NCBI RefSeq assembly: GCF_005116455.1
Contig: NZ_SWBP01000001.1
Span: forward strand, 496,001-560,000
Reading direction: 5' to 3'
DNA: 64,000 nucleotides
DNA from: Pedobacter cryophilus
Lineage (GTDB): Bacteria; Bacteroidota; Bacteroidia; Sphingobacteriales; Sphingobacteriaceae
The notes under the pieces were generated by a model, which ran no database searches, was not told the origin of the DNA, and worked only from the letters and a program-made list of their open reading frames with translations. The translations under genes were made by a program, and so were the position numbers. Every line of letters starts with the position of its first letter. Position 1 is the stretch's first letter. Positions 3,977 to 24,170 of this stretch are shown piece after piece.

Positions 3977-4102
3977 TTTTCTTTAATAAAATATTGTTTG
4001 TGTTGGTTTAAAAAATATTTCTGATTGATTAGAAATCTTGGTTTATTAACAATTTTAATCATTATTAACCTGTTTTTGATGCCAATATAGCCTATTTATT
4101 TA

Positions 4103-4128
4103 TGCAATCGATGCCGGTAAGGTTTGCG
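4103..4128. promoter_or_regulatory. candidate LacI-family operator upstream of kduD
   Basis: TGCAATCGATGCCGG here is identical to 15 bases at 23039-23053 in the susC/lacI intergenic region, and 22 of 26 bases match overall in the same orientation relative to the minus-strand genes. The ATCGAT core with a central CG fits LacI-family operator architecture. It lies 127 bp upstream of the kduD start. Function is inferred, not shown. Confidence 0.6.
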
Positions 4129-4269
4129 TAAAGTGTGATTAGGGATGATCGTGTTTTAAATGCGAAGGGTATAGTTGAAAGTGAAATTTTAACCACTAAG
4201 AACACAGAGATCTCAGAGCTAAAATACAAACTTAGGTTTAAATTTTTTATAGCCACGAACACACGAATT

Positions 4270-4814
4270 TCCTCGAAGCTGGGTTGGTGACTACAAATTA
4301 AATAAAGTTTTTTTTGCCACGAATACACGAATTTTCTCGAAGCTGGATGGCTATTCTTCCTAAATCATTTAAACTTTTTATCTGCAATAGCTTATCTCCT
4401 TAATGCATTAGTGTTTTATTCGTGTATTCGTGGCAAAAAATTAAACGCTTTTTTTTAAGACACAAATTTTCTCGAAGCTGGGTGGTTATTCTTCCAAATC
4501 ATTTAAACTTTTTATCTGCAATAGCTTATCTCCTTAATGCATTAGTGTTTCATTCGTGTATTCGTGGCAAAAAATTAAACGCTTTTTTTTTAAGACACAA
4601 ATTTTCTCGAAGCTGGGTTGGTGACACAAATTAAATAAAGTTTTTCTTGCCACGAATACACGAATTTTCTCGAAGCTGGATGGCTATTCTTCCAAATCAT
4701 TTAAACTTTTTTATTTGCGATAGCTTAATCTCCTTAATGCATTAGTGTTTTATTCGTGTATTCGTGGCAAAAAATTAAACGCTTTTTTTAAGACACAAAT
4801 TTTCTCGAAGCTGG
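4270..4814. repeat. mosaic array of 63-bp and 135-bp direct repeats with internal inverted repeats
   Basis: TTCTCGAAGCTGG (first copy with one change) recurs near 4270 and at 4334, 4469, 4604, 4667 and 4802, giving spacings of about 63, 135, 135, 63 and 135 bp. The short spacers end in GCCACGAATACACGAAT (4316-4332 and 4649-4665). The long ones contain its exact reverse complement (4418-4434, 4552-4568, 4752-4768), so 17-bp inverted arms enclose about 85 nt. The array fills the gap between two pectin operon parts and has no coding capacity. Confidence 0.85.
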
Positions 4815-5779: not shown

Positions 5780-5785
5780 TAAAAT

Positions 5786-6604
5786 TTATTTCAATTGGTA
5801 CGCTATTACTGAGTTTTTAAAAAAAGTTGGAATGTAAGCTGTCTTTTTTTGAGCGTTATAACCCAAATCAGCTGTATTAATTTTTTGCTTTCGGGTATCC
5901 ATTAATTGGGTTACTGTTCCATCCATTTTAACTTCATACACTAAACCAACCCAACAAGAAACTAAAAAAGTATTTGCAGCAATGGGCTCAATTCCATCTC
6001 CGCCAGATGCTAACCCTTTAGCAATTGTGGTTATTTTCCTTTCCGCATCTACCTTTAATAATGTTGGTCCGCTTAAAATAAAAAGATTATCACCAACTAC
6101 TTTTAAGCCGTTGGCATTGGTCATTTTATCTAAATAAAGTGCGACTTTGTTGTTTTCAATTTTATAAATATGCCCTAATCTGGTATCAGAAACATACACT
6201 CCACCTTTAGCGTCTATGGCAATATCATTTAAAAATACGGTTCCTTCTACAGGAATTTTATTGGTGATTTTTCCTGCTTTTACCTCAATCACCACCACTT
6301 CATTAAGATCAGCAACGTAAAGTTTTCCTTTATAAATACCCATTCCTTTGGGTGCATTTAAACCGGTTACCCAATTTTTATTGATGATTTTTCCGTCTTC
6401 ACTTAAAATTGCAATTCCACCTTTTCCATCTGCTTTAGCGGCATCGCCGTCTATTAAAGACACATACAGGCTTTTTCCATTTTTAGTTGGCAAAACCGAT
6501 TCGGGTGTGGGCAAATCTGTAGTTTCCCAAAGTTTAGTGAGCGTAACTTGCGCATTTGCAGTAACAACAAATAAAAGGAAGCAAAGAATTAGACTATTTT
6601 TCAT
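5786..6604 (-). CDS. secreted SMP-30/gluconolactonase-like beta-propeller protein
   Basis: This 272-aa protein has a signal peptide ending near VTANAQ. Repeated blades are visible (GIAILSEDGKI, GVYVSDTRLGHIYKIENNKV, FLVSCWVGLVYEVKMDGTV), matching the SMP-30/gluconolactonase/LRE-like fold. The family hydrolyses sugar lactones or binds small ligands around a metal. I did not verify all metal ligands, so lactonase activity is only possible. It sits inside the pectin operon, 14 bp after GH95, and may process an aldonolactone or act as a binding protein in the periplasm. Confidence 0.72.
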   Translation of the reverse strand: MKNSLILCFLLFVVTANAQVTLTKLWETTDLPTPESVLPTKNGKSLYVSLIDGDAAKADGKGGIAILSEDGKIINKNWVTGLNAPKGMGIYKGKLYVADLNEVVVIEVKAGKITNKIPVEGTVFLNDIAIDAKGGVYVSDTRLGHIYKIENNKVALYLDKMTNANGLKVVGDNLFILSGPTLLKVDAERKITTIAKGLASGGDGIEPIAANTFLVSCWVGLVYEVKMDGTVTQLMDTRKQKINTADLGYNAQKKTAYIPTFFKNSVIAYQLK

Positions 6605-6618
6605 GATTTTGAATAAGA

Positions 6619-9084: not shown

Positions 9085-9085
9085 C

Positions 9086-10033
9086 TTATTTAGGATTCCA
9101 ATTTTTAAACACGTTTTTTATGGTGTATTCTTTGGCTTCTGCCGATGATAATTGCTTAGACCAGCTTACTCTACTTGAGGGTTGCGCCCCAGGACCATAA
9201 TTTTCATATTCAACATATCGCGATAGCGGAAACGTATCTAATTTATTCCACACCGACCAACCTTCTGATTTGATATGCGGTCCCATATAACAATGAATAT
9301 AGGCCACACTAGCGTAAGGACGCCATGGCCTACCGAGCGAAACTTTGTTTAAAGAAGTATCGCCAGTTAAAACGCAATTGTAAAAAACATAGCCATAAGA
9401 ATTATTTTGTGGCGTTGAAGCTGCCGTAACATGCGAATTCTTATTGCTTTGAATATGACAGTTTTGAAACCACGCAGTAGCCGAACCAAAAATAAAATCG
9501 GTGGTGCCCTCTAAGTAACAATTCTCATAATATTGACGGCTACCTTCTGCATTTAAATAGAGAATATCTTGATTCCCGATAATTCTACAATTTTTAAAAA
9601 CCGCCCTGTCGCCACGTACTTCTAAGGCAACAGCCTGTCCGGCTGTAAAACCTGCATCGTTTTGAAAAGTTATATTTTCTGCAGAAAAATCATCGGCTAA
9701 AGCCAAAAAACTATACGATGATTGCGTATTTATTGGCGATCCCGTTTTAACTACTTTGCTAGGGGAATCATCATAAGTTAAAATGGTTTTAAACTGATCT
9801 TCACCAATCAATTTAACGTTGTTTTTGGTAGAATCTAAAAGCAATTTCTCTTTATAAACGCCATTTTTGATGTATATTTCTACCTTCTCTTTATTATGAA
9901 GCGGCACCGCATTTAAAGCTTGCTGAACGGTTTTGAAATTACCATCGCCATCTTGGGAAACTACTATTTTGGTTTGGGAATAAGCAAGAGCGCCAAATCC
10001 AAGGAATAAAAAAGTAAACAATGTTTTCTTCAT
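9086..10033 (-). CDS. pectinesterase (CE8), copy 3 of the operon
   Basis: This 315-aa secreted protein has a signal peptide ending at ALAYSQ. It shows CE8 right-handed beta-helix motifs: GNQDILYL (catalytic Asp), EGTTDFIFGSATA (second Asp) and SLGRPWRPYAS (conserved Arg and Trp). It demethylates homogalacturonan so that pectate lyases and polygalacturonase can act, releasing methanol. It is tightly packed between a second CE8 (18 bp upstream) and GH95. At roughly family length with all motifs intact, it is likely active. The tandem paralogs may differ in preferred methylation pattern. Confidence 0.95.
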   Translation of the reverse strand: MKKTLFTFLFLGFGALAYSQTKIVVSQDGDGNFKTVQQALNAVPLHNKEKVEIYIKNGVYKEKLLLDSTKNNVKLIGEDQFKTILTYDDSPSKVVKTGSPINTQSSYSFLALADDFSAENITFQNDAGFTAGQAVALEVRGDRAVFKNCRIIGNQDILYLNAEGSRQYYENCYLEGTTDFIFGSATAWFQNCHIQSNKNSHVTAASTPQNNSYGYVFYNCVLTGDTSLNKVSLGRPWRPYASVAYIHCYMGPHIKSEGWSVWNKLDTFPLSRYVEYENYGPGAQPSSRVSWSKQLSSAEAKEYTIKNVFKNWNPK

Positions 10034-10051
10034 CAGGTTTATTTTATGGAT

Positions 10052-11032
10052 TTATGGATTCCAATCTCTAAAAATATTTTTAAGCGTATATTTTTTGGCT
10101 TCCGCCGATTTAAGTTGCCTAGCCCATTTCACTCGGTTAGAAATTGCTGCTCCAGCACCCAAATTTTTATATTCGGCATAGAAAACCGTTTTTTCTTTAT
10201 CAGGAAACATGGCATCTCCTTTCCAAGGGTCCCAACCTTCGGGCTTAATATGCGCCCCTATTTCTGTGTTTATAAAAACGGTTTTTGCATACGGCCGCCA
10301 AGGTCTTCCTAAATAAACTCTATCTATTCCATCAGCAGCAATTAATTTACAGCTCAAAAAAACGAAACCAAAAGCTTGCTCTTTGGTGGTTGATGCAGCG
10401 GTGATAAAAGAATTATGTAAACTCTTGATGGTGCAGTTTTCAAAAACCGCAGTGGCTTCTCCAAAAATAAAATCGGTAGTGCCTTCTATGTAGCAATTTT
10501 CAAAATAGTTTCTACCATCTTTTGCCAAATAAAGCGTATCCTGATTTCCAAGAATTTCACAACTTTTAACCACACATCTATCGGCTTCAATCATCAAAGC
10601 TACGGCTTGCCCAACTTTACCCGCTGTGTTTTTAATGGTTAAATTTTCTAAACTACAATCATTGGCTTGCATTAAAACGGTGTAAGAAGTGTAAGTGCTG
10701 TATTTTGCACTTCCAGTTTGGTCTTTTCCCAAAAAATCTTTCCCCGAATAATCATCATTGGTAATAATGGTTTGCGCTTGGCTTTCGCCAATTAAAGCGA
10801 TGTTTTTTTTCCAAGATGGAATCACTAATTTCTCTTTATAAATTCCGTTTTTGATAAAGATGGTGACCTTTTTTTGTGAATGATCTCTTACCTTGTTTAC
10901 CGCTTCTTGAATAGTTTTAAAATCGCCACTACCATCTTGAGCAACGGTGAATTTTAAAGGCTGCTGTTGAGCTTGTAAACCCAGCATCAGCGTAAGCAAA
11001 AAAGTAAACAGACTAATTTTTTTCATACCCAA
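10052..11032 (-). CDS. pectinesterase (CE8), copy 2 of the operon
   Basis: This 326-aa protein has a signal peptide (LMLGLQAQQQ). CE8 motifs are GNQDTLYLAKDGRNYFENC, EGTTDFIFGEATAVFENC and YLGRPWRPYAK, so both catalytic Asp residues and the conserved Arg are present. It contains an insertion (FLGKDQTGSAKYST) near residue 100 relative to the 315-aa neighbour. It de-esterifies methylated galacturonan in the periplasm or at the surface. It follows the PL9 gene by 37 bp and precedes another CE8, suggesting an old tandem duplication followed by divergence. Confidence 0.95.
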   Translation of the reverse strand: MGMKKISLFTFLLTLMLGLQAQQQPLKFTVAQDGSGDFKTIQEAVNKVRDHSQKKVTIFIKNGIYKEKLVIPSWKKNIALIGESQAQTIITNDDYSGKDFLGKDQTGSAKYSTYTSYTVLMQANDCSLENLTIKNTAGKVGQAVALMIEADRCVVKSCEILGNQDTLYLAKDGRNYFENCYIEGTTDFIFGEATAVFENCTIKSLHNSFITAASTTKEQAFGFVFLSCKLIAADGIDRVYLGRPWRPYAKTVFINTEIGAHIKPEGWDPWKGDAMFPDKEKTVFYAEYKNLGAGAAISNRVKWARQLKSAEAKKYTLKNIFRDWNP

Positions 11033-11069
11033 TTATTTTACGAACTCGCTCCTAATCATTTAAAAGAGA

Positions 11070-12209
11070 TTATTTCAGTTTTAAAAAGTCTATTTCAGGC
11101 AAACTTCCATCTGCTTTGCGGGGCTTATAAAGTTCTTCAGTATCTAAGCTTTTAAAATCACTAGCTTTTAATGCCGAAGAATTTTGCCAGCTATTATTCT
11201 CGATATCCTTCACATCGGCATTTAAACCTCCTACTTCACCATAAACCAGCGAATTTTTAATGGTTAGTTTTGATAGTGGATTCTTGCTGCCGAAACCCAT
11301 ATTAGCTTGCTGATTGTTGTATGCTTTGCAATTTATTAAAGTAACTTCACCACGGTTGCTGTTATGATCAAAGCCTTTTTTAAGGTTTGAAACCGAAATG
11401 CAATTTTCATAAACTGCATTGTGTTTTAACAATTTATCATCGCTTCCGCCAGATTTAAAACCGTTGCCATCGCCACCGCTAGGTTTTCCATCCTTCAACT
11501 CTCCGTTATTAAAAGCCCAGCAGTTAATGTAGGTGGTTGTAATATTATCAGTGTTTTTTAAGTAGCCATCCCAACCATCATCCAAATTTTGCCAAGCTCG
11601 GCATCCTTCAAACTTATTGCCAGTACCAGCATCAATTTTACAAGCAAAACCATCGGCATTTTCAATTTTAGAATCGGCGTTATGGTAAGAATCGCAGTTT
11701 AATATCAGGTTGTTTGCCGCACCAGCAACCAATTGCAAACCTGTATCAGAACATTCAGAAAATGTACAAAATTCAATGATATTATTGCTTCCGCCGGCAA
11801 TCAATAAACCGTTGTCGCCGGCATTAAAAATATCTAATCCTTTGATGTGCCAATTACTGGCTCTCAAAATTATTCCTTGGTTAGAATCATCTTCTGGCAA
11901 AGCAGTGAAATTAAATTTTGGTCGGCTAGCGCTTTTTTCATCCGCCTTAAAAACAATTTTATCTGTTAAGGTACCGCTTGTTTTAATATCAATTCTTTTA
12001 TCAAATAAATACGCTCCGCCCTGCACCAAAATTACATCTCCGGGTTTGGCAATTTTTACTGCATCAAAAACTTCTTGAACGGTACTTACTTTCAACTCGG
12101 TTTTTCCTGTTAAACTATTTTTAGCTACAGAACAAGATTGCGTTATTAAAAAAATAAGCACAAAAGATAAAAAACTGAGTATTAGATTTTGCTTTTTTAA
12201 ATATGTCAT
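11070..12209 (-). CDS. pectate lyase PL9 family lipoprotein
   Basis: This 379-aa protein has a lipobox (ITQSC). The parallel beta-helix of PL9 is clear: GIILRASNWHIKGLDIFNAGDNGL, TGLQLVAGAANN, ADGFACKIDAGTGN (calcium-binding and catalytic region), DDGWDGYLK and GNGFKSGGSDD. PL9 enzymes cleave polygalacturonate by beta-elimination with calcium and a catalytic Lys, giving unsaturated oligogalacturonides that GH105 and Kdu enzymes then process. It lies between GH43 and CE8 with 13 and 37 bp gaps. A rhamnogalacturonan specificity (known for some PL9 members) cannot be excluded. Confidence 0.92.
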   Translation of the reverse strand: MTYLKKQNLILSFLSFVLIFLITQSCSVAKNSLTGKTELKVSTVQEVFDAVKIAKPGDVILVQGGAYLFDKRIDIKTSGTLTDKIVFKADEKSASRPKFNFTALPEDDSNQGIILRASNWHIKGLDIFNAGDNGLLIAGGSNNIIEFCTFSECSDTGLQLVAGAANNLILNCDSYHNADSKIENADGFACKIDAGTGNKFEGCRAWQNLDDGWDGYLKNTDNITTTYINCWAFNNGELKDGKPSGGDGNGFKSGGSDDKLLKHNAVYENCISVSNLKKGFDHNSNRGEVTLINCKAYNNQQANMGFGSKNPLSKLTIKNSLVYGEVGGLNADVKDIENNSWQNSSALKASDFKSLDTEELYKPRKADGSLPEIDFLKLK

Positions 12210-12222
12210 GAACTAATTTTTT

Positions 12223-13857
12223 TTATTTATCTATCCTAAACCAGTCAAAATCGGCATAGCCTGTATCGTTAATTTTTGTGTTTCCGGTACTAAACAAACC
12301 TATTTTAGCACCTACCCATTTACCCGGTAAAGCCTGAAAATTTTGAATGGCTTCTGTATAGGTGATTCCGTCTAAACTGTAAGAAAAAGTACATTTTGCC
12401 CCTTTATCAACTTTAACTTTTAACCAAACTTCTGCAGTGTTTAATTTGGTGATGATGGTTTCAATTTCTGGATTTCCTTTATCCGCTTTTTCACAAATTC
12501 CTTTTACCAGATACAATCCATCTGTTTTACTTTTAATAGAAAGATTGGCGTAACTTAAACCCAATATTACTAGGCCGGCTTCTTCATTCTTAGTTTTTAA
12601 ATTGGGATTTGGAGTAAACTTTAATTTGGTAGTGGCAGTAAATTCATCGGCCGGAAACTTTTGCCCAATAATATTAGGCACATCCCAAAGATTACGGGCA
12701 CTATCTGTAGCATGAGCATATAATCTTAGTTTTCCATTATTGGCTGTCATTAACCAATTACCCACCCAATTAGCTTCCCATTGCCATTGTTTACCCAATT
12801 CTTTATCATTAAACTCATCAGATTCTGCCGGAGTTTGAATAGGATAAGTTTTGCCAATAGCTGGCTTTTTATAAGTTAAAACAGGTTCTCCAATTCCGTC
12901 ACCATCTTTATCCAACCCAATTACTGGCCAATCATTTATCCATTTCATGGGTTGTAAATGCACCACTCGTCCATAAGCATCTTTATCTTGAAAATGAAAA
13001 AACCAATCTTCGCCTTTTGGGGTGCTTACCCAAGCGCCTTGGTGTGGACCATTAATTTCGCTTTTTCCTTCATCCATCACTACTTTTCTTTCATAAGGAC
13101 CTAAGATATTTTTTGACCGCAAAACCAATTGCCAGCCTGTTGATACTCCCCCAGCAGGCGCAAAAAGATAATAGTAATTATTTCTCTTATAAACTTTAGG
13201 CCCTTCAATGGTTGGGTCGGTTTCGTGACCATCATATACCACCATACTTTCCCCAGTAACTTCTGTTCCATCAGTATTCATGGGTGCTATGGAAATAATG
13301 CTTTTAATACCTGCTCTACTCCCAGCATAAGCATGTGTTAACCAAGCTTTACCATCTTCATCCCAAAACGGACAAGGATCTATAATTCCCTTGCCGGGAT
13401 ATACCAATAATGGTGTTGACCAATCTTTGGCAGGATCTTTAGTTTTTACCATGTAAATGCCATAATCAGGATCGGGATAGTAAATATAAAACTCATTATT
13501 ATGGTAACGAATAGCAGGCGCCCAAACTCCGTTTCCATGTTGAGGCTTGTTAAAAACATTAAATGGCGGCTGTTTTTTTAATGCATGGTTAATGAGCGTC
13601 CAGTTTACCATATCCTTAGAATGTAAAATGGGTAGCCCTGGGATATGCTCAAAACTAGAGGAAGTTAAATAATAATCCTCGCCAACTCTTATCGCATCCG
13701 GATCTGAATAATCTGCATTTAAAACAGGATTTTTATAAGTTCCATTGCCTTGATCAGAGACCCAAACTTTGGAAACCTCGTTCTTAGTTGCTTGTTGTGC
13801 GAAAGAAGTGCTTACTAAACTTACTAGAATGGTTAAATATTGAAAAGCTTTGATCAT
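12223..13857 (-). CDS. GH43 glycosidase (subfamily 12-like) with C-terminal beta-sandwich
   Basis: This 544-aa protein has a signal peptide ending near TSFAQQ. The five-bladed propeller begins at NPVLNADYSDPDAIRVG (catalytic base Asp), followed by DPCPFWDEDGKAWL (pKa-modulating Asp) and PTIEGPKVYKR (acid Glu). Residues from about 345 on form a concanavalin-like domain usual in GH43 beta-xylosidase/arabinofuranosidase proteins. Likely targets are arabinose or xylose side chains of pectin. A 71-bp gap upstream is the largest break in the enzyme operon apart from the repeat region, so a secondary promoter could lie there. Confidence 0.92.
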   Translation of the reverse strand: MIKAFQYLTILVSLVSTSFAQQATKNEVSKVWVSDQGNGTYKNPVLNADYSDPDAIRVGEDYYLTSSSFEHIPGLPILHSKDMVNWTLINHALKKQPPFNVFNKPQHGNGVWAPAIRYHNNEFYIYYPDPDYGIYMVKTKDPAKDWSTPLLVYPGKGIIDPCPFWDEDGKAWLTHAYAGSRAGIKSIISIAPMNTDGTEVTGESMVVYDGHETDPTIEGPKVYKRNNYYYLFAPAGGVSTGWQLVLRSKNILGPYERKVVMDEGKSEINGPHQGAWVSTPKGEDWFFHFQDKDAYGRVVHLQPMKWINDWPVIGLDKDGDGIGEPVLTYKKPAIGKTYPIQTPAESDEFNDKELGKQWQWEANWVGNWLMTANNGKLRLYAHATDSARNLWDVPNIIGQKFPADEFTATTKLKFTPNPNLKTKNEEAGLVILGLSYANLSIKSKTDGLYLVKGICEKADKGNPEIETIITKLNTAEVWLKVKVDKGAKCTFSYSLDGITYTEAIQNFQALPGKWVGAKIGLFSTGNTKINDTGYADFDWFRIDK

Positions 13858-13928
13858 GAAAATAATTTTGAAAATGGATAATCATTGATACCGAATTAAA
13901 AAAACGATATATTATAATTGGTAAAAAT

Positions 13929-14879
13929 TTAATTGGGTTGCCAGCCTCTTAATATATTATTCAGACTGTAATTTTTCACTTCATCATCACTAAGTTGATG
14001 AGACCATTTTACTCTTTTATCAGGCTTAAAGCCGATACCTTTATTTTGATATTCGGCGTAAAAAGCGGTTTCTTTATTAGATTCTTTACCCCAATGGTCC
14101 CAACCTTCTGGTTTAATAAAAGCGCCTAAATCACAATTGATAAACACGGTTTTGGCAAAAGGACGCCACGGCCGACCTAAAAAATAAGACGCTCCTTCTT
14201 CTCCTTTAATATTGCAATTGATAAAAACGTAACCAAACTTTGTAGAATCTGGCGTAGAAGCTGCGGTAATATACTGTCCTCCTTTTTTACAAAAAATCTC
14301 GCAATTTTTAAAAACTGCGGTTGCTGATCCAAAAATAAAATCGGTAGTTCCTTCTATGTAGCAGTCTTCAAAAAATTGTCTGCTGCCATAACCATAAGTG
14401 TACAAAGTATCTTGAAAGCCTAAAAATTTACAGTTTTTAAAATGCGATTTATCTCCGGCAACCCAAATTGCAACTGCTTGCCCCACCGGCCCAGATGAAT
14501 TTGCAAAAGTGATATTCTCGGCAGAAAAATCGTCGCCATAAACATAAAAAGAAGCAGAACCTGATGTGCCTTTCTCCTCACCAAAAACATTCTTCTTTTG
14601 GGCATAATCATCATAAGTTAAAATGGTATTGGCTTGGCTTTCGCCGATGATTTTTACCATCTTTTTAGATGCAGCTAATACCAATTTCTCTTTATAAATG
14701 CCGTTTTTAATAAAGATAGTACTGGTTACTTTTCTAAAATCGGGTACGGCATCAAAAGCTTCTTTAATAGTTTTAAAATCTGCACTTCCATTAGCATCTA
14801 CCACAAAATCATAATCTTTGGCTTTCGCCGATAAAAGACTAAAACTTAAAATCAAGAAAAATAAAAGATACTTTTTCAT
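13929..14879 (-). CDS. pectinesterase (CE8), copy 1 of the operon
   Basis: This 316-aa secreted protein has a signal peptide ending at LLSAKAKD. CE8 motifs are all present: LGFQDTLYTYGYGSRQFFEDC, EGTTDFIFGSATAVFKNC and FLGRPWRPFAK. It removes methyl esters from homogalacturonan. It is the first of three CE8 genes in the operon, 2 bp after a CE12 gene. Methyl- and acetyl-esterases are thus encoded side by side, suiting work on heavily esterified plant pectin. Confidence 0.95.
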   Translation of the reverse strand: MKKYLLFFLILSFSLLSAKAKDYDFVVDANGSADFKTIKEAFDAVPDFRKVTSTIFIKNGIYKEKLVLAASKKMVKIIGESQANTILTYDDYAQKKNVFGEEKGTSGSASFYVYGDDFSAENITFANSSGPVGQAVAIWVAGDKSHFKNCKFLGFQDTLYTYGYGSRQFFEDCYIEGTTDFIFGSATAVFKNCEIFCKKGGQYITAASTPDSTKFGYVFINCNIKGEEGASYFLGRPWRPFAKTVFINCDLGAFIKPEGWDHWGKESNKETAFYAEYQNKGIGFKPDKRVKWSHQLSDDEVKNYSLNNILRGWQPN

Positions 14880-14881
14880 TA

Positions 14882-15637
14882 TTATTTTGAGTTTACGATG
14901 AACTTAGAAAGTGGGAGTTTTTGAGCTTTGATATCGTTTAAAACTAATTCTGCTATTAATCTAGCTCCATATTCATTAAAATGAGTGCCATCTGTTACGC
15001 CAGCCGGGTAATTTGGATGTACGTTTGCCGCCATATCTAAAAACAGCAGTTTAGAGTTTTCTGCTCCATATTGCTGATACAATTTTCGGCTCATTTCATC
15101 TAAATCAATTAAAATAACTTGCTCTGATTTGGCTAATTCCCTTACCACATCTGAATAAGGAGCATGAGTTTGTCTGATATTACCTTCTTTATCAAAATAG
15201 CGACGAGAAACCGGGGTAATTAAAATTGGAATGGCTTTTTTAGCTTTAGTTTCTTCTAAATATTTAATGAGGTTAACTTTAAATTCATCGGGCGTGGTGC
15301 TTCTATCTTTATAACGTTCTCCTTTTCCTTCGTCATTATGCCCAAATTGGATAAAAACATAATCACCTGCTTTTAAATTTTGTTGAATAGGCAACCACGA
15401 GCCCTCAGCCAAAAAAGTGCGGGTACTTCTTCCATTTTTTGCTCGGTTTTCTATAGTCACTTTTTGAGTGTCAAAGTAATTTTGGAAAGGCATTCCCCAA
15501 CCTGTTTCTGGATATTTAGTCGTTAATTTCTCGGCAATGGTAGAATCACCCACTAACCAAATGGTTACTTTTTCATCAGCTGATTTAAAAGCTAAAAGGC
15601 AAAAAACTAAACCGAATAATAAGATTTTATTTTTCAT
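14882..15637 (-). CDS. rhamnogalacturonan acetylesterase (CE12, SGNH fold), copy 2
   Basis: This 251-aa secreted SGNH hydrolase shows block I WLVGDSTIAEK (nucleophile Ser), block III QFGHNDEG (Asn) and block V DGTHFNEYGA (Asp and His). These match CE12 enzymes such as RhgT/YesT, which remove O-acetyl groups from rhamnogalacturonan I. The start overlaps the stop of the upstream CE12 gene (TAATG), implying translational coupling. The two neighbours are clearly homologous over their whole length, a tandem duplication. Substrate preference between the copies is unknown. Confidence 0.92.
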   Translation of the reverse strand: MKNKILLFGLVFCLLAFKSADEKVTIWLVGDSTIAEKLTTKYPETGWGMPFQNYFDTQKVTIENRAKNGRSTRTFLAEGSWLPIQQNLKAGDYVFIQFGHNDEGKGERYKDRSTTPDEFKVNLIKYLEETKAKKAIPILITPVSRRYFDKEGNIRQTHAPYSDVVRELAKSEQVILIDLDEMSRKLYQQYGAENSKLLFLDMAANVHPNYPAGVTDGTHFNEYGARLIAELVLNDIKAQKLPLSKFIVNSK

Positions 15638-16401
15638 TATTTTTTTGGTTCTACTGGTTTTACAATTTGGTTAACCAAGGATAAATTCAAGTTTTTGATC
15701 TCGGCTAATACCAATTGAGCCATTAATCTGGCCCCCAATTCATTAAAATGGGTATCGTCTGTTTTCCCATTAGGGTAATTTGGATTTTGCCCCGCTTCTA
15801 AATGATTGAACAAATATTTAGATTTTTCTATCCCATAATTTTGGAGTAGCTCCATGCTTTTTACAGATAAATCTATTAATGGAACTTGGTTTTTTGAGGC
15901 TACCTCCCTTACCAATTGCGCATATTCTTGGTGTGTATCTACCACTTTACCTTCTGCATCAAATTTTCTGCGGGCTACTGGTGTAATTAAAACCGGAATA
16001 CCTTTTTTTGCTCTTGTTTCTGAAACATAAAGCAACAAATTAGCCTTAAATTCTTCGGGTGTGGTATATGTTTTTTTGGTAGAAACTTCATCGTTATGCC
16101 CAAATTGGATAAAAACATAATCACCTTCTTTTAAGGTTTCTAGTACTGGTTGCCACCTATTTTCTTTAATAAAAGAACTGGTGCTTCTGCCATTCATGGC
16201 TCGGTTATTAATCTTTATATTTTTATCAAAAAATTGAGTAAAAGGCATTCCCCATCCTGTTTCTGGGTATGTTCTTTTATCTTTTATGGATAGGGTAGAA
16301 TCACCAATTAAATACACTGTAATTTGCTTTTCTTCTAATGATTTAAAGCTCAATAAAAAAAAACAGATGGTTAGAAAGTATGAAATATGTTTTTTGCTCA
16401 T
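15637..16401 (-). CDS. rhamnogalacturonan acetylesterase (CE12, SGNH fold), copy 1
   Basis: This 254-aa protein has an N-terminal hydrophobic signal. The SGNH blocks are YLIGDSTLSIK (Ser), QFGHNDEV (Asn) and DDTHFNELGA (Asp, His), as in CE12 esterases. It should remove acetyl groups from the rhamnogalacturonan backbone. Compared with the downstream copy, block V reads DDTHFN instead of DGTHFN, a small change beside the catalytic dyad. It starts 3 bp after the PL1 stop and overlaps the next gene by one base. Confidence 0.92.
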   Translation of the reverse strand: MSKKHISYFLTICFFLLSFKSLEEKQITVYLIGDSTLSIKDKRTYPETGWGMPFTQFFDKNIKINNRAMNGRSTSSFIKENRWQPVLETLKEGDYVFIQFGHNDEVSTKKTYTTPEEFKANLLLYVSETRAKKGIPVLITPVARRKFDAEGKVVDTHQEYAQLVREVASKNQVPLIDLSVKSMELLQNYGIEKSKYLFNHLEAGQNPNYPNGKTDDTHFNELGARLMAQLVLAEIKNLNLSLVNQIVKPVEPKK

Positions 16402-16404
16402 CGC

Positions 16405-17790
16405 TTATTTTACTAAAGAGTTGATATAGATTTCTATGTTGGTGTAATTATTAGCTAAGCTTTTTAAAGACGCATCATTTAGTGCCGGATTTAAGCCTTT
16501 TTCCTTTTCCCAAGCATCGGGCATTCCGTCTCTGTCGCTATCTTTTTTAGGTTTTTTTGATTTCAGAGTTGGCCAAGCATTTACGGTTTCCTCATAAGTT
16601 GTGCCGTGTTTAAACCCGCCTTGCACATCAATTAATCCTCCAGTTCTGTTCCTCACATTTTTGATGATTCTTTTGTCCAAAGTATCTCTGCAAAAGCTTG
16701 CTCCTGCTGATTTTAAAACATCGGCGTAAGCCAAAACAGCTGATTTTTCTATTAAATTGATAGCCTGAAATGGTGTTTTAACCAAAGCTTTTTGTTTCTC
16801 AAAATCAGTGGTGTTTTTATCTAAATGAACTCCTAGTTCGTTATTTACAGTTACATCTTCAGCACCATCTACAAAATTACCAGCCACATAAAATTCACCA
16901 ATTCCTGATTCTCCTTTGCTCGGGTTCACAATCCTAGATTTTACGTTTTTACTAGTTATTGGGCCGTATTTGTAGTAATTGTTTACCATGTTATAATTGC
17001 CGCCCTCGCCACCGTAAACATTATTATGCCCCCAATTATAAATTACGTTATTTCTAAAATCAACTAATTCTTCTGTAGCACCCAATCTTGCTCCATTAAA
17101 ACGAGGGTTTCTGCTGTTGCAGTGTGCAAATAAATTATGATGAGCACTTAAATGTGTACCACCCCAAATTCCGCCGTATCCATGTTTTTCAAAATCTTTA
17201 TCGCCGGTTTCAAAATGATAAGAATAGTTGAGTGGTTCTGATAAAATATTCCATTGCAAGGTGGTGCTGTCTCCTCGGTAAACCGACATGACTTCATCGG
17301 TACTCCAGCTGATGCTGCAATGATCTATAATGATATTTGTTTTGCCGTTGCCACCAAAAGCATCGTCGCTACCAGCGCCATCAACCATTCCGTTGTTTTG
17401 ATACCTATCGCCCATTCTAAAACGTAAATACCTTACAATAATGTTATCGCCACCTAAACTTACCGGATAATCGGCTAAGCAAATACCATCTCCCGGTGCA
17501 GTTTGCCCGGCAATGGTTGCGTTTTTAGAAATATCTAATCTTGATTTTAAATGGATAGTTCCCGAAACTTCAAAAACAATAATTCTAGGGTGTTTTGCAG
17601 TTGCAGCAACTCTAAAACTTCCTTCGCCATCATCATTTAAATTGGTAACAATATAAACCTTGCCTCCTCTGCCTCCGGAGGTGTATTTCCCAAACCCTTC
17701 GGCCCCGGGAAAAGCAATTGATTGAGCATAGGTATTTTTTTGGCTGATAAAAATTAAGATCAAAAGAACTTTGATTGTTTTACTTATCAT
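16405..17790 (-). CDS. pectate lyase PL1 family
   Basis: This 461-aa secreted protein has a signal peptide ending near NTYAQS. The mature start (FPGAEGFGKYTSGGRGGKVYIVTNLND) is the hallmark of Bacteroidota PL1 enzymes. The beta-helix core carries IIIDHCSISWSTDE (calcium-site region) and NSRNPRFNG (containing the conserved Arg region). The C-terminal DSDRDGMPDAWEKEKG resembles a calcium-binding TSP3 motif. It cleaves de-esterified polygalacturonan by beta-elimination. As the first enzyme after susD it is probably the best expressed one. Confidence 0.94.
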   Translation of the reverse strand: MISKTIKVLLILIFISQKNTYAQSIAFPGAEGFGKYTSGGRGGKVYIVTNLNDDGEGSFRVAATAKHPRIIVFEVSGTIHLKSRLDISKNATIAGQTAPGDGICLADYPVSLGGDNIIVRYLRFRMGDRYQNNGMVDGAGSDDAFGGNGKTNIIIDHCSISWSTDEVMSVYRGDSTTLQWNILSEPLNYSYHFETGDKDFEKHGYGGIWGGTHLSAHHNLFAHCNSRNPRFNGARLGATEELVDFRNNVIYNWGHNNVYGGEGGNYNMVNNYYKYGPITSKNVKSRIVNPSKGESGIGEFYVAGNFVDGAEDVTVNNELGVHLDKNTTDFEKQKALVKTPFQAINLIEKSAVLAYADVLKSAGASFCRDTLDKRIIKNVRNRTGGLIDVQGGFKHGTTYEETVNAWPTLKSKKPKKDSDRDGMPDAWEKEKGLNPALNDASLKSLANNYTNIEIYINSLVK

Positions 17791-17857: not shown

Positions 17858-19654
17858 TTAATAATTTGGATTTTGCTTCAATATACCACGATAAGCATCT
17901 AAAGTAGCTTGATCAAAAGGAAATAATTCGCTTTTATTTGGAACAAAGAATCTAGCAATTCCTTGGTCTAAAGGTAAATTATCTATCAAAGTATTTGATG
18001 TTAAATGCTGTCTCCAGTCTGTTCTAGTCCAGCCAGTAGTTGGGCTAGGCACCGCAGTTGTTGTAAAAGGAGTTGGAGAAAAGAATTGAATTTCTTCACC
18101 GTTTAATTTCCAATAAACATACTGAGGAACGTTGGCATAAGCACCTTGAAAGTTTCTAATTTGTTGAAGCTTAGTTCTAGTCTCAGCAATTTTAGAGGCT
18201 AATAAATTCCAGCGGATTAAGTCATATTTGCGGATAGCTTCACCACCAAATTCTAAATAACGCTCATTCACAATAGCATTAAAAAAAGCATCTTTAGTTG
18301 TTGGTGTAACTCCAATACTGTTCACATTTCCTCTGTAAGCTCTTTTTCTAACCTCTTCAAATGCTGCAATAGCCGCTGCTGTTGGAGAGCCATTAATCTT
18401 ATTCTCTGCCTCGGCAAACATTAACAATACATCGGCAAAACGAATAATTGGCCAGTTATAACCTAAATTTAGTACTGTACCTGGTAAAAATGGGTTACGC
18501 CAATCTCTTCTAAATTTACCATCAGTAAGTTCTGCTAAACGTCTTAAGCTTTTGTTATTGTTGGCTGCAATTGCATAATAGGTGATAGATACATCTCTTC
18601 TCGTATCTATTGGTTCAAAAGAATAAAAGTAATTTGGTAATGTTAGAATACCCCCGCCACCAGTACCATATCTTGATGCTGCATTCACACTTGGACCATT
18701 GTAATTTCCCATTCTGCTATCAGAATTGCTATTGCCGCCACCTGCACCTACTTCAAAAATAATTTCTCCGAAAGGGTCAGGTTGAAAAGAACTTAAATAA
18801 CGCTTCCAAATGTCTTCATAATTAGGATTTAAAGTATGTTGGTCTCTTCTAGCCATTAAATCAGCACATTCATCTCTTGCGATGGTGTAATATTTAAGAG
18901 AATCGCTTCGGCGCTCCATAGTTTTGGTTTCGTTTCTTAGCGAAAAACCGCCTCTAAACATTGCTAATTTAGCTCTTATGGCTTTCACCGCTCCTTTTGT
19001 AATTCTTTCATTTCTAACTACTTCTGTTCTCCAAGGCACTAAATCTTTGGCAATTGCTAAATCGGCAATTAAACGATCGTAAGTAGAATCACGATTAGCT
19101 TGAGGAATATATAGATTCGGATTTTTATAAGAAGGTGTAAATGGAGCAGGAACATCGCCCCAGTTTCTTACCAATTCAAATAAAAATTGTGCTCTCAAGG
19201 TAAGTGCTTCTCCGTGTAATCTTCTGAGTTCTTTCTTTTCTGCTTCAGTACCGTTATTATACTGGGTCATTTGAGGTATCTGATCGATACATAAATTGGC
19301 TTTTTCTATCCCACGGTATAACTGTACAAAAGGATTACGTAATTCTGAATTGGAAAGTAATAACTGGTATCTTCCAATTCCCCTTCTTCCATTGTCTAAA
19401 CCTCCACTTACTATGGCTTCATCAGAATCATAAGGATAGTATAAATTAATACGTATTCCATAACCATTATCACCCTGCAACTCATCATATACACCTAAAA
19501 GTGCTGTAGTTGCATTTGATACGTCGGAGAAAGCTTGTTCTACATTGTATTGAGAAACTGGTTCAACTTCTAAATACTTTTTACACCCTACAAATCCTAA
19601 TGTAGAGATTATGGTGATTGCTATTATTATTGATTTTGAAAATCTCATTTTCAT
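17858..19654 (-). CDS. SusD-like outer-membrane glycan-binding lipoprotein
   Basis: This is a RagB/SusD protein of about 598 aa with signal peptide and lipobox (LGFVGCKKYLEVEP). An earlier in-frame ATG at 19696 would run into the susC end and put extra residues before the signal peptide, so the start at 19654 or 19648 is preferred. Typical segments are FSDVSNATTALLGVYDEL, the TPR-like helices (ALTLRAQFLFELVRNWGD) and the C-terminal WPIIRFADVLLMFAEAENK. SusD captures oligosaccharides at the surface and covers the SusC transporter. It starts 11 bp after the susC stop codon. Pectic oligosaccharide is the inferred ligand. Confidence 0.95.
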   Translation of the reverse strand: MKMRFSKSIIIAITIISTLGFVGCKKYLEVEPVSQYNVEQAFSDVSNATTALLGVYDELQGDNGYGIRINLYYPYDSDEAIVSGGLDNGRRGIGRYQLLLSNSELRNPFVQLYRGIEKANLCIDQIPQMTQYNNGTEAEKKELRRLHGEALTLRAQFLFELVRNWGDVPAPFTPSYKNPNLYIPQANRDSTYDRLIADLAIAKDLVPWRTEVVRNERITKGAVKAIRAKLAMFRGGFSLRNETKTMERRSDSLKYYTIARDECADLMARRDQHTLNPNYEDIWKRYLSSFQPDPFGEIIFEVGAGGGNSNSDSRMGNYNGPSVNAASRYGTGGGGILTLPNYFYSFEPIDTRRDVSITYYAIAANNNKSLRRLAELTDGKFRRDWRNPFLPGTVLNLGYNWPIIRFADVLLMFAEAENKINGSPTAAAIAAFEEVRKRAYRGNVNSIGVTPTTKDAFFNAIVNERYLEFGGEAIRKYDLIRWNLLASKIAETRTKLQQIRNFQGAYANVPQYVYWKLNGEEIQFFSPTPFTTTAVPSPTTGWTRTDWRQHLTSNTLIDNLPLDQGIARFFVPNKSELFPFDQATLDAYRGILKQNPNY

Positions 19655-19665
19655 ATTCTTAAAAT

Positions 19666-22600
19666 TTAAAAAGAAATATTTGTTCCAAAAACCCATGTTT
19701 TTGCCCTTGGGTAACCTGCAAAATCTACTCCCTGTGTCAATGGATCTGATCTTCTTGTGCTAATTTCCGGATCAAAACCTGTGTATTTAGTAATAGTTGC
19801 CAAATTATTAACCGTTGCATATAATCGCAGATTAGCAATTTTTACTTTTTGAAGTACTGTTTTTGGAATGGTGTACCCAAAAGTTAAGTTATTGATACGA
19901 AGGAAAGAACCATCTTCTATTGCATAAGAATGTAAATAATACCTTTGGTTACGTACTGGCGACCAAATTTTTGCATTTGCATTTAAAGTAGTTAACTCAA
20001 CAGGGTCTGTTACTACTTGACCAGTACTGTTGATATTGGTAAACCTGTCTTTCATTTCACTTAATAAATTGAGGTTCAAGAAACTTCCGTTGGTCCACTC
20101 AATTCTGTTTGCATTATAAACATCATTACCCACTACAAAATTCACAAAAACGCTCATGTCAAAGTTTTTATAAGAAACTTGATTGTTCCAGCCTCCTGTA
20201 AATTTTGCATTTGCATTTCCTAAAACAGTTCTGTCTTTATCTAAAGTTACTAAACCGTCTCCGTCAATATCTTTAAACTTAAGAGAGCCAGGCTGTGGAT
20301 TTCCAAACAAGGAAGTATTGTTGGCCATGCCGGTTTTTAATGTGTAAACCCCAGCTGCGTAATTAAAATCGTCTACTTTATAAAAACCATCAGTTACAAA
20401 ACCATACATTAAACCAATTGGCTGTCCAACTTTAACTAAATAATCATCAGCACCATCAGACCCTTGCCAACCTGCACTTCTAGTTTGCTCTCTAATAGCG
20501 CCTAAGTTTTCTACCCGGTTTCTATTAAAAGCGATGTTGAAACTAGAAGTCCAATTCACATTTTTAGTATTAATGGCTGTGGCATTTAATTGAAATTCTA
20601 AGCCTCTATTAGTAGTAGAACCCACGTTTTGTAATTGTGAAGTATAGCCTGTAGTTGGTGGTATTGCTGCAGAAAGCAATAAATCGTTTCCTCTGTTTAA
20701 GTAAGCATCTGCAGTAAATTGAATTCTATTATTTAGAAAAGAAAGATCAAGACCTATATTTTGAGAAACAGACCTTTCCCATTGTAAATCTTCATTAGCT
20801 AAGGCCGATGGTGCGAAGCCAGGTAAAACAGTATGACTTAAAGCATATTCACCTGTTACTCCATATAATTGTTGATATAATAAATCGCCGATTCTATTGT
20901 TTCCTGCTACACCATAACCAACTCTAACTTTTGCGTCATTAATAAACTTAATATTCTCCATAAATTTTTCGTTAGAGAAGCGGTAAGCTACTGTACCAGA
21001 AGGAAAAACTAACAATCCTTTTTCATACTTAAATTTTGTAGAACGATCTGCCCTTACAGCAACTGATGCTAATATCTTTTTATTGAATGAATAATTAGCT
21101 CTTCCAAAGAATGATAAAATTCTGTTTGGTGGATTCTCAAAAGAAGTGGGCCTAGGTTGAGTTGAACCTGTTGGAGGAGAACCCAAACCTAAATTTGATA
21201 AAGCTTTTTCGGCAGAAATATCAGCAGGGAAATAACGTGTTTCTACTGTGCTACCTTTAGAAAGTGTTTCATAGGTTTCTTGCCCAATCAACAAATCAAT
21301 ATCATGTAGCTTTTTTATTCCATTTTTTACAAATTGTAGCGTGTTAGAATTATTAAAAGTTCCGTTGGTTTGTATAGCAAGAGAAGCTACAGGTAATGTT
21401 CCAAAATTTCTGGCTGTTGGCGTAATTTTACTAAAAAATAATTCCTGCCTAACATTTGTGTTGTCAAAACCAGCAGTAGTTTTAAAGGTTAAGCCTTTTA
21501 CAATTTGGTAACTTAAATAACCACTAATGTTGGTCCCTGTTGTTGGAGCATTACGATATTCTGCCCTTGTTAAATTAACAGGATTTTGAATTTGATTTGA
21601 ATTTAAATAATAATCTTCATCAGATTGATCAATCTGAGGAGCATTAGCTAACTCAAATGGGCGATAAATAATGCTATGGCGTAATCTATTGGTAGTTCTT
21701 GTACCGCTTGATGTAGTGCCAGCGCCTTGCACTTCTTGAGACAAATATCTTGCTGTTAAACCAACTCTTAATTTACTAGATGCTTTATGGTCTAACTTAA
21801 AGTTGGCTAAATATCTTTTAAAGCCCGACTCAAGCAATAATCCTTGCTCATCATTTGCTGTTAAACTTAAGTTAAAAGTAGTTGATTCACTACCCCCACT
21901 TATGGCAACATTATGATTTTGATAAAAAGCGCTTCTACCAAATACCTCTTCTTGCCAGTTAACAGCTGGTATATTTTTGTAAACACTTAAAGTATCAAAA
22001 GTACTCCCATAATTTCTGGCAAAAGCATCAATATCTGTTTGGCTACTTCTACTTCTCTCATATTGCCATAAAACAAAATCGTAAGGGTTTAAAACATCAA
22101 TTTTTTTAGATAATTCTCTAAAACCAACCGAGCCATTATAAGAAACTATCGTTTTACCTGGTTTACCTGATTTTGTAGTAATAATAACCACTCCGTTTGC
22201 ACCTCTTGCGCCGTAAATAGCGGTTGTAGAGGCATCTTTCAAAACATCAACTGATTGTATATCTTGAGGTGATAATACTGACAAAGCATTTTCTACTTGC
22301 ACACCATCAACAATAAAAATAGGAGAATTATCTTGTGTAATAGACCCTCCGCCTCTTACTCTTATTTGCACTTCGGCTCCTGGTGCTCCTTCTGATGTAG
22401 TCACCTGCACACCCGCTAATTTTCCTGTTAAGGCCTCTGCAGCATTAGTTAGTGGAATATCTCTCAGTTGTTTTGCTCCAACTGAAGAAACTGGACCAGT
22501 TAAATCGCTCCTATTTACTGTTGCGTAACCTATAGCTACAACTTCTTGCAACTCTTGTGCATCAGACAATAAAGTAACATTTATTGTGGTTTGATCAGTA

Positions 22601-22854
22601 ATAACGACCTCTTGAGTTTTGTAGCCAATATATCTGAAAACCAACACTGCATTTCCGTTGGATACGCTGATGCTATAATCTCCATTAACATTAGTTTGGG
22701 TGCCTTGTGAGCTATTTTTAACTGATACGGCAACTCCAATTAAAGACTCGCCCTTGTCGTCTCTAACTTTACCCTTAATTTGTTTAGTTTGTGCTTGCAC
22801 AAAATCTTGCAGAACAAAACATAACGTAAATAATAGTAGAATTTTTTTGATCAT
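19666..22854 (-). CDS. SusC-like TonB-dependent outer-membrane transporter
   Basis: This is a SusC/RagA protein of about 1062 aa. The start at 22854 (MIKKILLLF) gives a clean signal peptide ending at VQAQ; a longer frame to 22914 adds an unlikely leader. It has a carboxypeptidase-D-like domain (KGKVRDDKGESLIGV), a plug (IPLTNAAEALTGKLAGVQV, VDGVQVEN, SVDVLKDASTTAIYGARGANGV) and a 22-stranded barrel ending in FGTNISF. It imports pectin oligomers using TonB energy and is the first gene of the enzyme operon. The intergenic region to lacI carries the candidate operator. Confidence 0.96.
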   Translation of the reverse strand: MIKKILLLFTLCFVLQDFVQAQTKQIKGKVRDDKGESLIGVAVSVKNSSQGTQTNVNGDYSISVSNGNAVLVFRYIGYKTQEVVITDQTTINVTLLSDAQELQEVVAIGYATVNRSDLTGPVSSVGAKQLRDIPLTNAAEALTGKLAGVQVTTSEGAPGAEVQIRVRGGGSITQDNSPIFIVDGVQVENALSVLSPQDIQSVDVLKDASTTAIYGARGANGVVIITTKSGKPGKTIVSYNGSVGFRELSKKIDVLNPYDFVLWQYERSRSSQTDIDAFARNYGSTFDTLSVYKNIPAVNWQEEVFGRSAFYQNHNVAISGGSESTTFNLSLTANDEQGLLLESGFKRYLANFKLDHKASSKLRVGLTARYLSQEVQGAGTTSSGTRTTNRLRHSIIYRPFELANAPQIDQSDEDYYLNSNQIQNPVNLTRAEYRNAPTTGTNISGYLSYQIVKGLTFKTTAGFDNTNVRQELFFSKITPTARNFGTLPVASLAIQTNGTFNNSNTLQFVKNGIKKLHDIDLLIGQETYETLSKGSTVETRYFPADISAEKALSNLGLGSPPTGSTQPRPTSFENPPNRILSFFGRANYSFNKKILASVAVRADRSTKFKYEKGLLVFPSGTVAYRFSNEKFMENIKFINDAKVRVGYGVAGNNRIGDLLYQQLYGVTGEYALSHTVLPGFAPSALANEDLQWERSVSQNIGLDLSFLNNRIQFTADAYLNRGNDLLLSAAIPPTTGYTSQLQNVGSTTNRGLEFQLNATAINTKNVNWTSSFNIAFNRNRVENLGAIREQTRSAGWQGSDGADDYLVKVGQPIGLMYGFVTDGFYKVDDFNYAAGVYTLKTGMANNTSLFGNPQPGSLKFKDIDGDGLVTLDKDRTVLGNANAKFTGGWNNQVSYKNFDMSVFVNFVVGNDVYNANRIEWTNGSFLNLNLLSEMKDRFTNINSTGQVVTDPVELTTLNANAKIWSPVRNQRYYLHSYAIEDGSFLRINNLTFGYTIPKTVLQKVKIANLRLYATVNNLATITKYTGFDPEISTRRSDPLTQGVDFAGYPRAKTWVFGTNISF

Positions 22855-23038
22855 AAATTTAGATTTTAATTGATGGTTATCAATAGCGCTTATCCAGAAT
22901 AATTTTGCTCGCAAACAAGTCTTATAAGTAAGGCTAAATGGCTCGAAAAAAATTAAATAGAAAGTCTATTTTATAATTGGTTCTAACAATATTACTGAGT
23001 AAAATGCCAATAAAGAAGAATAACTAAGTAAATAAATG

Positions 23039-23064
23039 TGCAATCGATGCCGGCAACGTTGCCG
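23039..23064. promoter_or_regulatory. candidate tandem LacI-family operator between susC and lacI
   Basis: CGGCAACGTTGCCG at 23051-23064 is a perfect 14-bp palindrome centred on CG, as expected of a LacI-family operator. Just before it, TGCAATCGATGCCGG (23039-23053) overlaps and has its own ATCGAT core, giving centres 12 bp apart. It lies 185 bp upstream of susC and about 100 bp upstream of lacI, so one site could control both. The sequence recurs at 4103-4128. Confidence 0.7.
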
Positions 23065-23162: not shown

Positions 23163-24170
23163 ATGTTCAAACCTACTACCATAAAAGACATTGCAAAAGC
23201 GTTAAACCTTTCTACATCAACGGTATCCAGAGCATTAAGAGGTGGCTATGAAATTAGTGAAGAAACAAAAAAAATTGTTTTGGAATATGCAGAGAAAATT
23301 AATTTTACCAGAAACCCAATTGCATTAAGTTTAAAAGAAAGAAGGAGCTATTCTATAGGAATTATTGTGTGCGAGGTAGCTAATGTTTTTTTCTCTCAAG
23401 CCATTGCCGGGATTGAATCAATTGCCTACAATAAAGGATACCATGTGGTTATTTCCCAAAGCCATGATCAATATGAAAGAGAAGTAACCAATATACAGCA
23501 TTTAGCCAATCGGTCTGTTGATGGAATTATTATTTCATTAGCAGCAGAAACTAAAGATTATACCCACATTGAAAAATTACATGAACAAGGTTTACCCATA
23601 GTTTTCTTCGACAGGATTTTAGAAAGCATGCAAACGCATAAAGTAACTAGTAACAATACACAAGGGGCCTTTGAAGCTACCGAGTTTTTGATTAGTAAAG
23701 GATGCAAAAAAATAGCTCATTTAGCAAACGCACCTCAATTATCTATCACCAAACAAAGGCAAATTGGCTATGAAGATGCTTTAAAAAAGCATGGAATACC
23801 TGTAAAAAACGAGTATATTAAATATTGCGAACATGGTGGCAGTGAAAAAGGTGAAGTAGAACTGGCCGTAAAATCTTTATTAAATTTACCCCAAAAACCC
23901 GACGCTATATTTGTAGCCAGCGATAGGTTAAGCATGGGCTGTTTAGCCGCTCTTAAAAAGTATAATACCGGAGCCGATTTAGTAATTGCTGGTTTTAGCA
24001 ATTCTGATGTGGTTGATTTATTAAAACCTTCCCTTTCTTGTGTAAGACAACCTGCATTTGAAATGGGCCGAATTGCTACTGAAATGTTGATTAATTTAAT
24101 AGAAAGCAAGTATCCGGTAGAAGAGTTTGAAACCAAAATGTTAAACACTACTTTTCAAATTAACGAATAG
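23163..24170 (+). CDS. LacI-family transcriptional regulator
   Basis: This 335-aa protein has an N-terminal LacI helix-turn-helix and hinge (TIKDIAKALNLSTSTVSRAL, then NFTRNPIALSLKERRS). A periplasmic-binding-protein-like sensor domain follows (IGIIVCEVANVFFSQAIAGIES, FDRILESMQTHKV, PDAIFVASDRLSMGCLAALKK, AGFSNSDVVDLLKPSLSCVRQP). It is divergent from susC and is the only regulator in the locus. No hybrid two-component or SusR-type gene is seen in the window. It likely represses or activates the pectin genes in response to a breakdown product, possibly a uronate intermediate. Ligand and sign of control are inference. Confidence 0.94.
   Translation: MFKPTTIKDIAKALNLSTSTVSRALRGGYEISEETKKIVLEYAEKINFTRNPIALSLKERRSYSIGIIVCEVANVFFSQAIAGIESIAYNKGYHVVISQSHDQYEREVTNIQHLANRSVDGIIISLAAETKDYTHIEKLHEQGLPIVFFDRILESMQTHKVTSNNTQGAFEATEFLISKGCKKIAHLANAPQLSITKQRQIGYEDALKKHGIPVKNEYIKYCEHGGSEKGEVELAVKSLLNLPQKPDAIFVASDRLSMGCLAALKKYNTGADLVIAGFSNSDVVDLLKPSLSCVRQPAFEMGRIATEMLINLIESKYPVEEFETKMLNTTFQINE

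Follow-up and report, generated by a model that had tools for sequence, protein, structure and literature searches.

A tandem LacI-type operator at a nearly fixed upstream distance probably joins pectin import and depolymerisation to uronate catabolism in Pedobacter cryophilus and its relatives

KdgR of Dickeya, a member of the IclR family, has a pectin regulon that joins depolymerases with genes of the KDG pathway; both its protein family and its operator differ from the LacI-type ones. Within the LacI family repression is the usual mode, and CcpA and PurR bind CG-centred operators which are usually single palindromes. For B. thetaiotaomicron, passages of PMC3878776 describe the LacI-type regulators KdgR (BT0487), UxaR (BT0824) and UxuR (BT1434) as predicted for uronate genes, give the KdgR regulon a limited set of genes whose products are periplasmic or extracellular, and assign the rhamnogalacturonan and pectin loci with SusC/D to HTCS regulators. 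In Segatella copri, a LacI-like gene lies beside an altronate dehydratase gene; according to the relevant part of PMC11784079, neither this gene nor those around it showed upregulation on pectins. A search of the open PMC literature found no account of the LacI regulon or operator described here.

The window, a stretch of 64,000 nucleotides from Pedobacter cryophilus, contains two predicted operators:

23039 to 23064, minus strand: operator A, 26 bp, two CG-centred LacI-type units, sequence TGCAATCGATGCCGGCAACGTTGCCG
Centre 23045/23046: promoter-proximal unit of operator A, facing susC, TGCAATCGATGCC
Centre 23057/23058: distal unit of operator A, GGCAACGTTGCC
4103 to 4128, minus strand: operator B, 26 bp, sequence TGCAATCGATGCCGGTAAGGTTTGCG
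Centre 4109/4110: proximal unit of operator B, TGCAATCGATGCC
GGTAAGGTTTGC: distal unit of operator B, with an imperfect centre (GG in place of CG)

The sequence-only reading had singled out these 26-mers as a shared tandem operator, and its description is accurate: they agree at 22 of 26 bases, the first 15 contiguous, in the same orientation. Operator A contains a 14-bp palindrome, CGGCAACGTTGCCG, at 23051–23064 and an ATCGAT core at 23043–23048, the CG centre of which lies 12 bp from the AACGTT centre. Each site is upstream of a pectin transcription unit, susC (with lacI divergent on the other side) or kduD.

Within the window alone, three matches with at most three mismatches were found against a shuffle mean of 0.78, and 5 of 100 shuffles reach three, which is borderline; the 14-bp palindrome by itself gives two matches at the same tolerance, an unremarkable number reached by 13 of 100 shuffles. 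The weight rests on exact identity and genome-wide uniqueness. Operators A and B are the sole occurrences of the exact 15-mer in the organism's own genome (3.99 Mb, 16 contigs); with up to two mismatches the 15-mer has seven matches against two for the reversed control pattern, and a 24-base palindromic pattern with up to three mismatches finds operators A and B only (reversed control, 0). The common dispersed repeat which the sequence-only reading had itself named as a danger to its proposal is thus absent. A chance match or dispersed repeat could draw on the borderline window count, but has scarcely any probability left given only two exact copies in the genome and conservation of the site across the family. 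Very probably, as judged from sequence comparison, the two sites are control switches for a LacI-type regulator linking pectin digestion and import to sugar-acid breakdown.

The proposed binder and the genes behind the two operators are as follows:

23163 to 24170, plus strand: LacI-family regulator, 335 aa, proposed binder, divergent from susC
19666 to 22914, minus strand: SusC-like TonB-dependent transporter, heading the import/depolymerisation run, its start probably the ATG at 22854
17858 to 19696, minus strand: SusD-like lipoprotein
4829 to 17790, minus strand: eleven closely spaced genes on one strand, taken to complete the susC operon
3212 to 3976, minus strand: KduD-like dehydrogenase (TIGR01832, 325 bits, cut-off 339), first gene behind operator B
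2371 to 3201, minus strand: KduI (5-dehydro-4-deoxy-D-glucuronate isomerase)
495 to 2213, minus strand: GH28

The regulator has an N-terminal LacI HTH (PF00356, 43.1 bits against a cut-off of 27) and a periplasmic-binding-protein-like ligand domain matched by PF00532, PF13407 and PF13377; among solved structures it matches CcpA best (1rzr, E = 1.6e-46) and also PurR, over approximately residues 5–316. The CG-centred pseudo-palindromic element near its gene, present and conserved, has the form of a LacI/GalR family operator and probably serves as one. The eleven genes following susD encode a weakly PelZ-like protein (134 bits, cut-off 840), two GDSL esterases, three pectinesterases, a GH43, a Pel9-like protein, a GH95, one unknown and a BD-FAE-type esterase. 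The sequence-only reading had looked to uronate catabolism on the kduD side, and the run bears this out: it continues on the same strand beyond the window (locus L115) with genes for GH88, UxaB (tagaturonate reductase), UxaA-like (an altronate/galactarate dehydratase-family protein), UxaC (uronate isomerase) and a KdgK-like PfkB kinase, several of these names being given by family and the kinase and dehydratase scoring below the cut-offs of the best NCBIfam models. Gaps of 157 bp between kduI and the GH28 gene and of about 110 bp before the kinase gene could hold further promoters; with this reservation for internal promoters, the route from pectin to KDG appears to lie under the two operators. 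Two similar copies of CACGAA-ACACGAATTT...CTCGAAGCTGG were noted by eye at window 4240–4350, in the interval that separates the kduD operator from the end of the esterase gene; they may be a dispersed intergenic repeat.

In the pertinent part of PMC7366714 the -7 box of Bacteroidetes reads TAnnTTTG. We scored it as TAnnnTTG, with the offset counted from the operator edge towards the target; in the window this gives:

22987 to 22994, minus strand: predicted -7 box of susC, TAATATTG, at an offset of 45 nt
4050 to 4057, minus strand: predicted -7 box of the kduD operon, TAAAATTG, at an offset of 46 nt
23031 to 23038, minus strand: A/T tract beside operator A on the promoter side, CATTTATT, its position conserved in relatives as roughly YARWTTTW

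Across 301 genomes of the family, a strict 20-mer (YGCAATCGWTNCCGGNAWCG) is present in 68, with none for the reversed control among the matches listed, and an orthologue of the LacI protein (E <= 1e-95) in 189. All 68 strict-motif genomes carry the orthologue (hypergeometric probability 7e-17, relatedness being ignored); the strict motif is absent from 121 of the 189 LacI-positive genomes. We examined 80 regions upstream of lacI, comprising 60 mostly better-scoring ones among the matches listed plus 20 others, so that they do not sample the 189 at random; all 80 were scanned for units directed away from lacI, and the 60 fetched in both directions. Of the 80, 68 contain a unit that matches at 12 or all of its 13 positions; 52 of the 68 also have a second AWCGWT core at exactly 12 bp (18 bp in one, 23 bp in three). 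In the other 12 regions (G131, G086, G070, G065, G073, G211, G082, G066, G021, G023, G002 and G020) no unit was found upstream of lacI; seven of these genomes (G131, G086, G070, G065, G023, G002 and G020) have the strict motif elsewhere, and its fetched contexts in G002, G020 and G023 are mostly pectin and uronate genes. Of 20 regions from one genus (g14), 14 have a second unit whose departures from the strict form are confined to the surroundings of CCGG (CGACAACGTTGCC type), and the remainder a weaker second unit.

The nearest named relatives are Pedobacter psychrophilus (88% identity) and P. segetis (87%). Among 61 loci from titled records (L117–L177), the unit is present only in three with at least 73% LacI identity; it was not found, for example, in Pedobacter zeae (61%), Paraflavisolibacter caeni (60%) or Sphingobacterium deserti (53%). 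Presence of the gene is thus not always matched by presence of the motif. Adhaeribacter aquaticus, a named genome of another genus, has a perfect operator (L119:9724–9749) with a -7 box at 45 and a LacI protein 73% identical, possibly through horizontal transfer. G014 has a near-perfect operator (L092:7489–7514) with a -7 box at 45, about 1.2 kb from another LacI gene, and no orthologue at the threshold used.

Leaving lacI out, 48 site–gene pairs with a good unit facing the gene were collected from 40 stretches, each picked because it surrounds a motif hit or a lacI gene (two from the organism's own genome), so that the following target counts are no census: SusC 17, GH28 10, GH43 3, PME 3, Pel9-like 2, GDSL 1 and PelZ-like 1. 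The remaining 11 of the 48 target genes have no homologue in the window; Pfam scans of nine gave a GH88, the tagaturonate epimerase UxaE, a mannitol-dehydrogenase-family protein (UxaB-like), a Gfo/Idh/MocA oxidoreductase, a PH-domain protein and four sorting-domain proteins with no further domain. Since GH88, UxaE and UxaB-like genes are faced directly, uronate genes are independent targets in other genera. Sites placed upstream of depolymerase and import genes and also of uronate catabolic genes suggest a uronate/pectin regulon. The proposal made from the window, that one LacI-type regulon joins import and depolymerisation to uronate catabolism, is therefore upheld as a prediction by the presence of the orthologue in every strict-motif genome and by the pectin and uronate targets elsewhere.

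The distance from operator to predicted promoter is nearly constant. In 76 dereplicated promoters (spacers collapsed at 65% identity, drawn from 61 lacI loci and the 48 target pairs) the box lies at 43–46 nt in 57, as against 1.1% in shuffled spacers, with 41 at 45, 12 at 46, three at 43 and one at 44; the TAnnnTTG box as defined is missing from the other 19. Counted by source, it is at 43–46 in 59 of 68 lacI-upstream loci, and G102, one of the nine exceptions, fits at 45 from its other unit; among target-facing pairs it is at 43–46 in 37 of 48 and at exactly 45 in 34. GH28 promoters of relatives share the operator–box geometry of kduD. Spacer positions 9–44 are mostly poorly conserved and the length is fixed, as counted over the same 61 lacI loci, a set from which some minus-strand loci are absent. 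Autoregulation of lacI with the same geometry was considered and rejected (box at 43–46 in 0 of 12 lacI-facing pairs).

The centre of the proximal dimer site lies 51.5 bp (susC) and 52.5 bp (kduD) from the -7 box. With the first T of the box taken as about -12, the proximal dimer would sit near -63 and the distal dimer near -75. A fixed, conserved site–promoter distance over different targets is the arrangement of a class I-type upstream regulator. A classical LacI repressor that blocks its promoter fits less well, as the operator does not overlap the predicted promoter; the box lies 43–46 nt beyond the operator edge in the 57 dereplicated promoters and at both window sites.

The GCAATC end of the operator points away from lacI, to the divergent side, in the 60 regions scanned in both directions. 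Full inverted repeats have GCAATC at both ends, and G196 has its better end towards lacI. Many sites are perfect inverted repeats centred on CCGG, for example CGCAATCGATACCGGTATCGATTGCG, which would suit a single dimer reading the whole 26-bp dyad rather than two dimers on two 12-bp units. We regard this as improbable: in G202 the proximal unit stands alone, and the -7 box is at 45, and upstream of lacI in G102 (L262) and G111 (L265) the second unit is a direct repeat, not an inverted one, with the 12-bp pitch kept and the -7 box at 45 and 46, respectively, from the first unit. The second unit being dispensable and orientation-free, we read the operator as two dimer sites and not as one long dyad.

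Elsewhere in the organism's own genome, the exact 14-mer YGCAATCGWTNCCG has four occurrences, the two window sites, C1:486875 and C9:394435; with one mismatch allowed there are 13 matches against seven for the reversed control, and single units alone are thus weak evidence. The C9 occurrence (L116:6424–6449, TGCAATCGTTGCCG) lies 75 bp before a Gfo/Idh/MocA oxidoreductase gene, and in G034 (L098) a full operator adjoining lacI also faces a Gfo/Idh/MocA gene. The C1 occurrence is a single-unit site, CGCAATCGATACCG, at L115:876–901 (C1:486875–486900, outside the window), with a kdgA-like (KDPG aldolase) gene on one side and the gene of a second KdgK-like kinase, kdgK2, on the other. Full units occur at this place in six relatives, two of which (G003 and G009) have no orthologue at the threshold.

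A pattern scan of the genome had been suggested with kdgK and kdgA among the expected hits; it does give the match between kdgA and the second kdgK, but not its ownership, since another LacI paralogue may hold that site. In the 12 genomes with kdgK2, the upstream unit matches at 13 of 13 positions in G000, G001, G003, G007, G009, G011 and G017 and at 12 of 13 in G023 and G050; no unit was found nearby in G005 (where the gene is partial), G024 or G037. By a looser pattern, a -7-like box faces kdgA at 45 in G001, G003, G011 and G017, at 44 in G007 and G009, and at 51 in G023; G000 has such boxes at 45 and at 54, of which the latter aligns with the relatives. The LacI orthologue was not found at E <= 1e-95 in G003 or in G009 (the latter 77% complete), and a paralogue from the organism's own genome (L041) is 66% identical to the LacI protein of G003 (locus L036); on these grounds the kdgA/kdgK2 site may belong to another regulator.

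The same observations, with the seven LacI-type genes of the genome and the orthologue-free site in G014, bear on whether a paralogue rather than the neighbouring protein is the real binder of the tandem operators. This we consider quite unlikely, as the orthologue accompanies every strict double site and a unit stands beside lacI in most of the regions examined.

Our main reading, to which we assign a probability of about 0.7 with the sign of control left aside, is that the adjacent LacI-family regulator controls one pectin regulon from a fixed upstream position. Each 26-bp operator would comprise two pseudo-palindromic sites for one dimer each, the first GCAATC|GWTNCC and the other as a rule inverted, with CG centres 12 bp apart, and the neighbouring regulator would bind both operators. 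Under its control would stand the susC operon, for import, esterases, lyases and hydrolases, and the kduD-kduI-GH28-GH88-uxaB-uxaA-uxaC-kdgK run, for uronate catabolism. At about -63 the regulator probably touches RNA polymerase instead of blocking the promoter; a fixed upstream distance over different targets is what polymerase contact requires, and contact is favoured for this reason. The ligand would be a pectin breakdown product or KDG.

The sign is less clear. Wherever the box is recognised, the operators lie upstream of the core promoter and do not reach into it, and their position goes with the target promoter and not with lacI; this favours activation, presumably with ligand, as somewhat likelier than repression. 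A weak -33 element was considered as evidence of activation and rejected: TTG at -25 to -20 is present in 31% of 36 operator promoters and in 20% of 83 controls. The -33 region is thus not weaker in operator promoters than in these controls; activator dependence gains no support from the comparison. From an operator centred at -60.5, GalR of the LacI family represses galP1 and activates galP2 by contact, as set out in a section of PMC4693257. Geometry alone therefore cannot fix the sign, given that GalR represses one promoter by contact from that position.

An ordinary LacI-type repressor, released by a pectin-derived ligand and acting upstream either by polymerase contact, as GalR does at galP1, or by looping, would agree with the usual mode of the family, with the GalR precedent and with the -33 comparison. 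We hold it to be unlikely, whilst giving it real weight, because the operator is upstream and clear of the recognised -7 box at nearly one distance in 57 dereplicated promoters; as for looping, the own genome has only two strong sites, 19 kb apart, and looping between close operators is not favoured. The fuller claim, that the LacI-family protein is the activator of the whole pectin-to-uronate regulon in this family, working through a tandem operator of 12-bp pitch at nearly one distance (about -63), is put forward tentatively, its chances lying a little below even.

A different LacI group was noted in passing (loci among L123–L177, mostly Flavobacterium). Tandem palindromes of the form TCGAAAACGTTTTCGA with a 20–21 bp pitch occur in 39 of 55 of these loci, just upstream of the LacI gene (at about 9917–9948 in many). 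Of 21 dereplicated loci, 19 have a -7-like box at 34–35 nt on the flank that does not face lacI (1.6% in shuffles), a pattern fitted after looking at the data; a looser palindrome pattern gave mixed peaks in the Flavobacterium loci. Such tandem operators with a box at 34–35 suggest that upstream LacI-type control may be a general mode in Bacteroidetes.

If the main reading holds, the whole path, from import across the outer membrane to phosphorylation of KDG, seems to answer to a single cytoplasmic regulator of the LacI type. With the upstream geometry fixed, the sign of control by LacI-type proteins in Bacteroidetes becomes directly testable, and the motif with its promoter template can be used for predicting such regulons in the family.

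The regulon joins depolymerases with the KDG pathway as that of Dickeya KdgR does, and differs from it in protein family and operator. CcpA and PurR are sequence relatives of the regulator with solved structures, and the pathways that they regulate differ. Among the closest known systems are also KdgR, UxaR and UxuR of B. thetaiotaomicron as they appear in passages of PMC3878776: LacI-family proteins of Bacteroidetes directed at glucuronate and galacturonate genes. There, pectin loci fall to HTCS regulators in the same passages, whereas here one LacI-type regulon appears to cover both ends. Segatella copri likewise has a LacI-type gene adjoining uronate genes in a pectin-using member of the Bacteroidota; the part of PMC11784079 concerned with it describes no operator. 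In geometry the arrangement resembles E. coli GalR at the external gal operator, where, in the section of PMC4693257 that treats it, a LacI-family dimer near -60 contacts RNA polymerase; GalR has one upstream operator and a second inside galE, whereas here two units stand 12 bp apart, at nearly one distance from many promoters. The regulon is thus a relative in kind of known ones, and differs from them in spanning import to catabolism and in its tandem operator at a fixed upstream distance.
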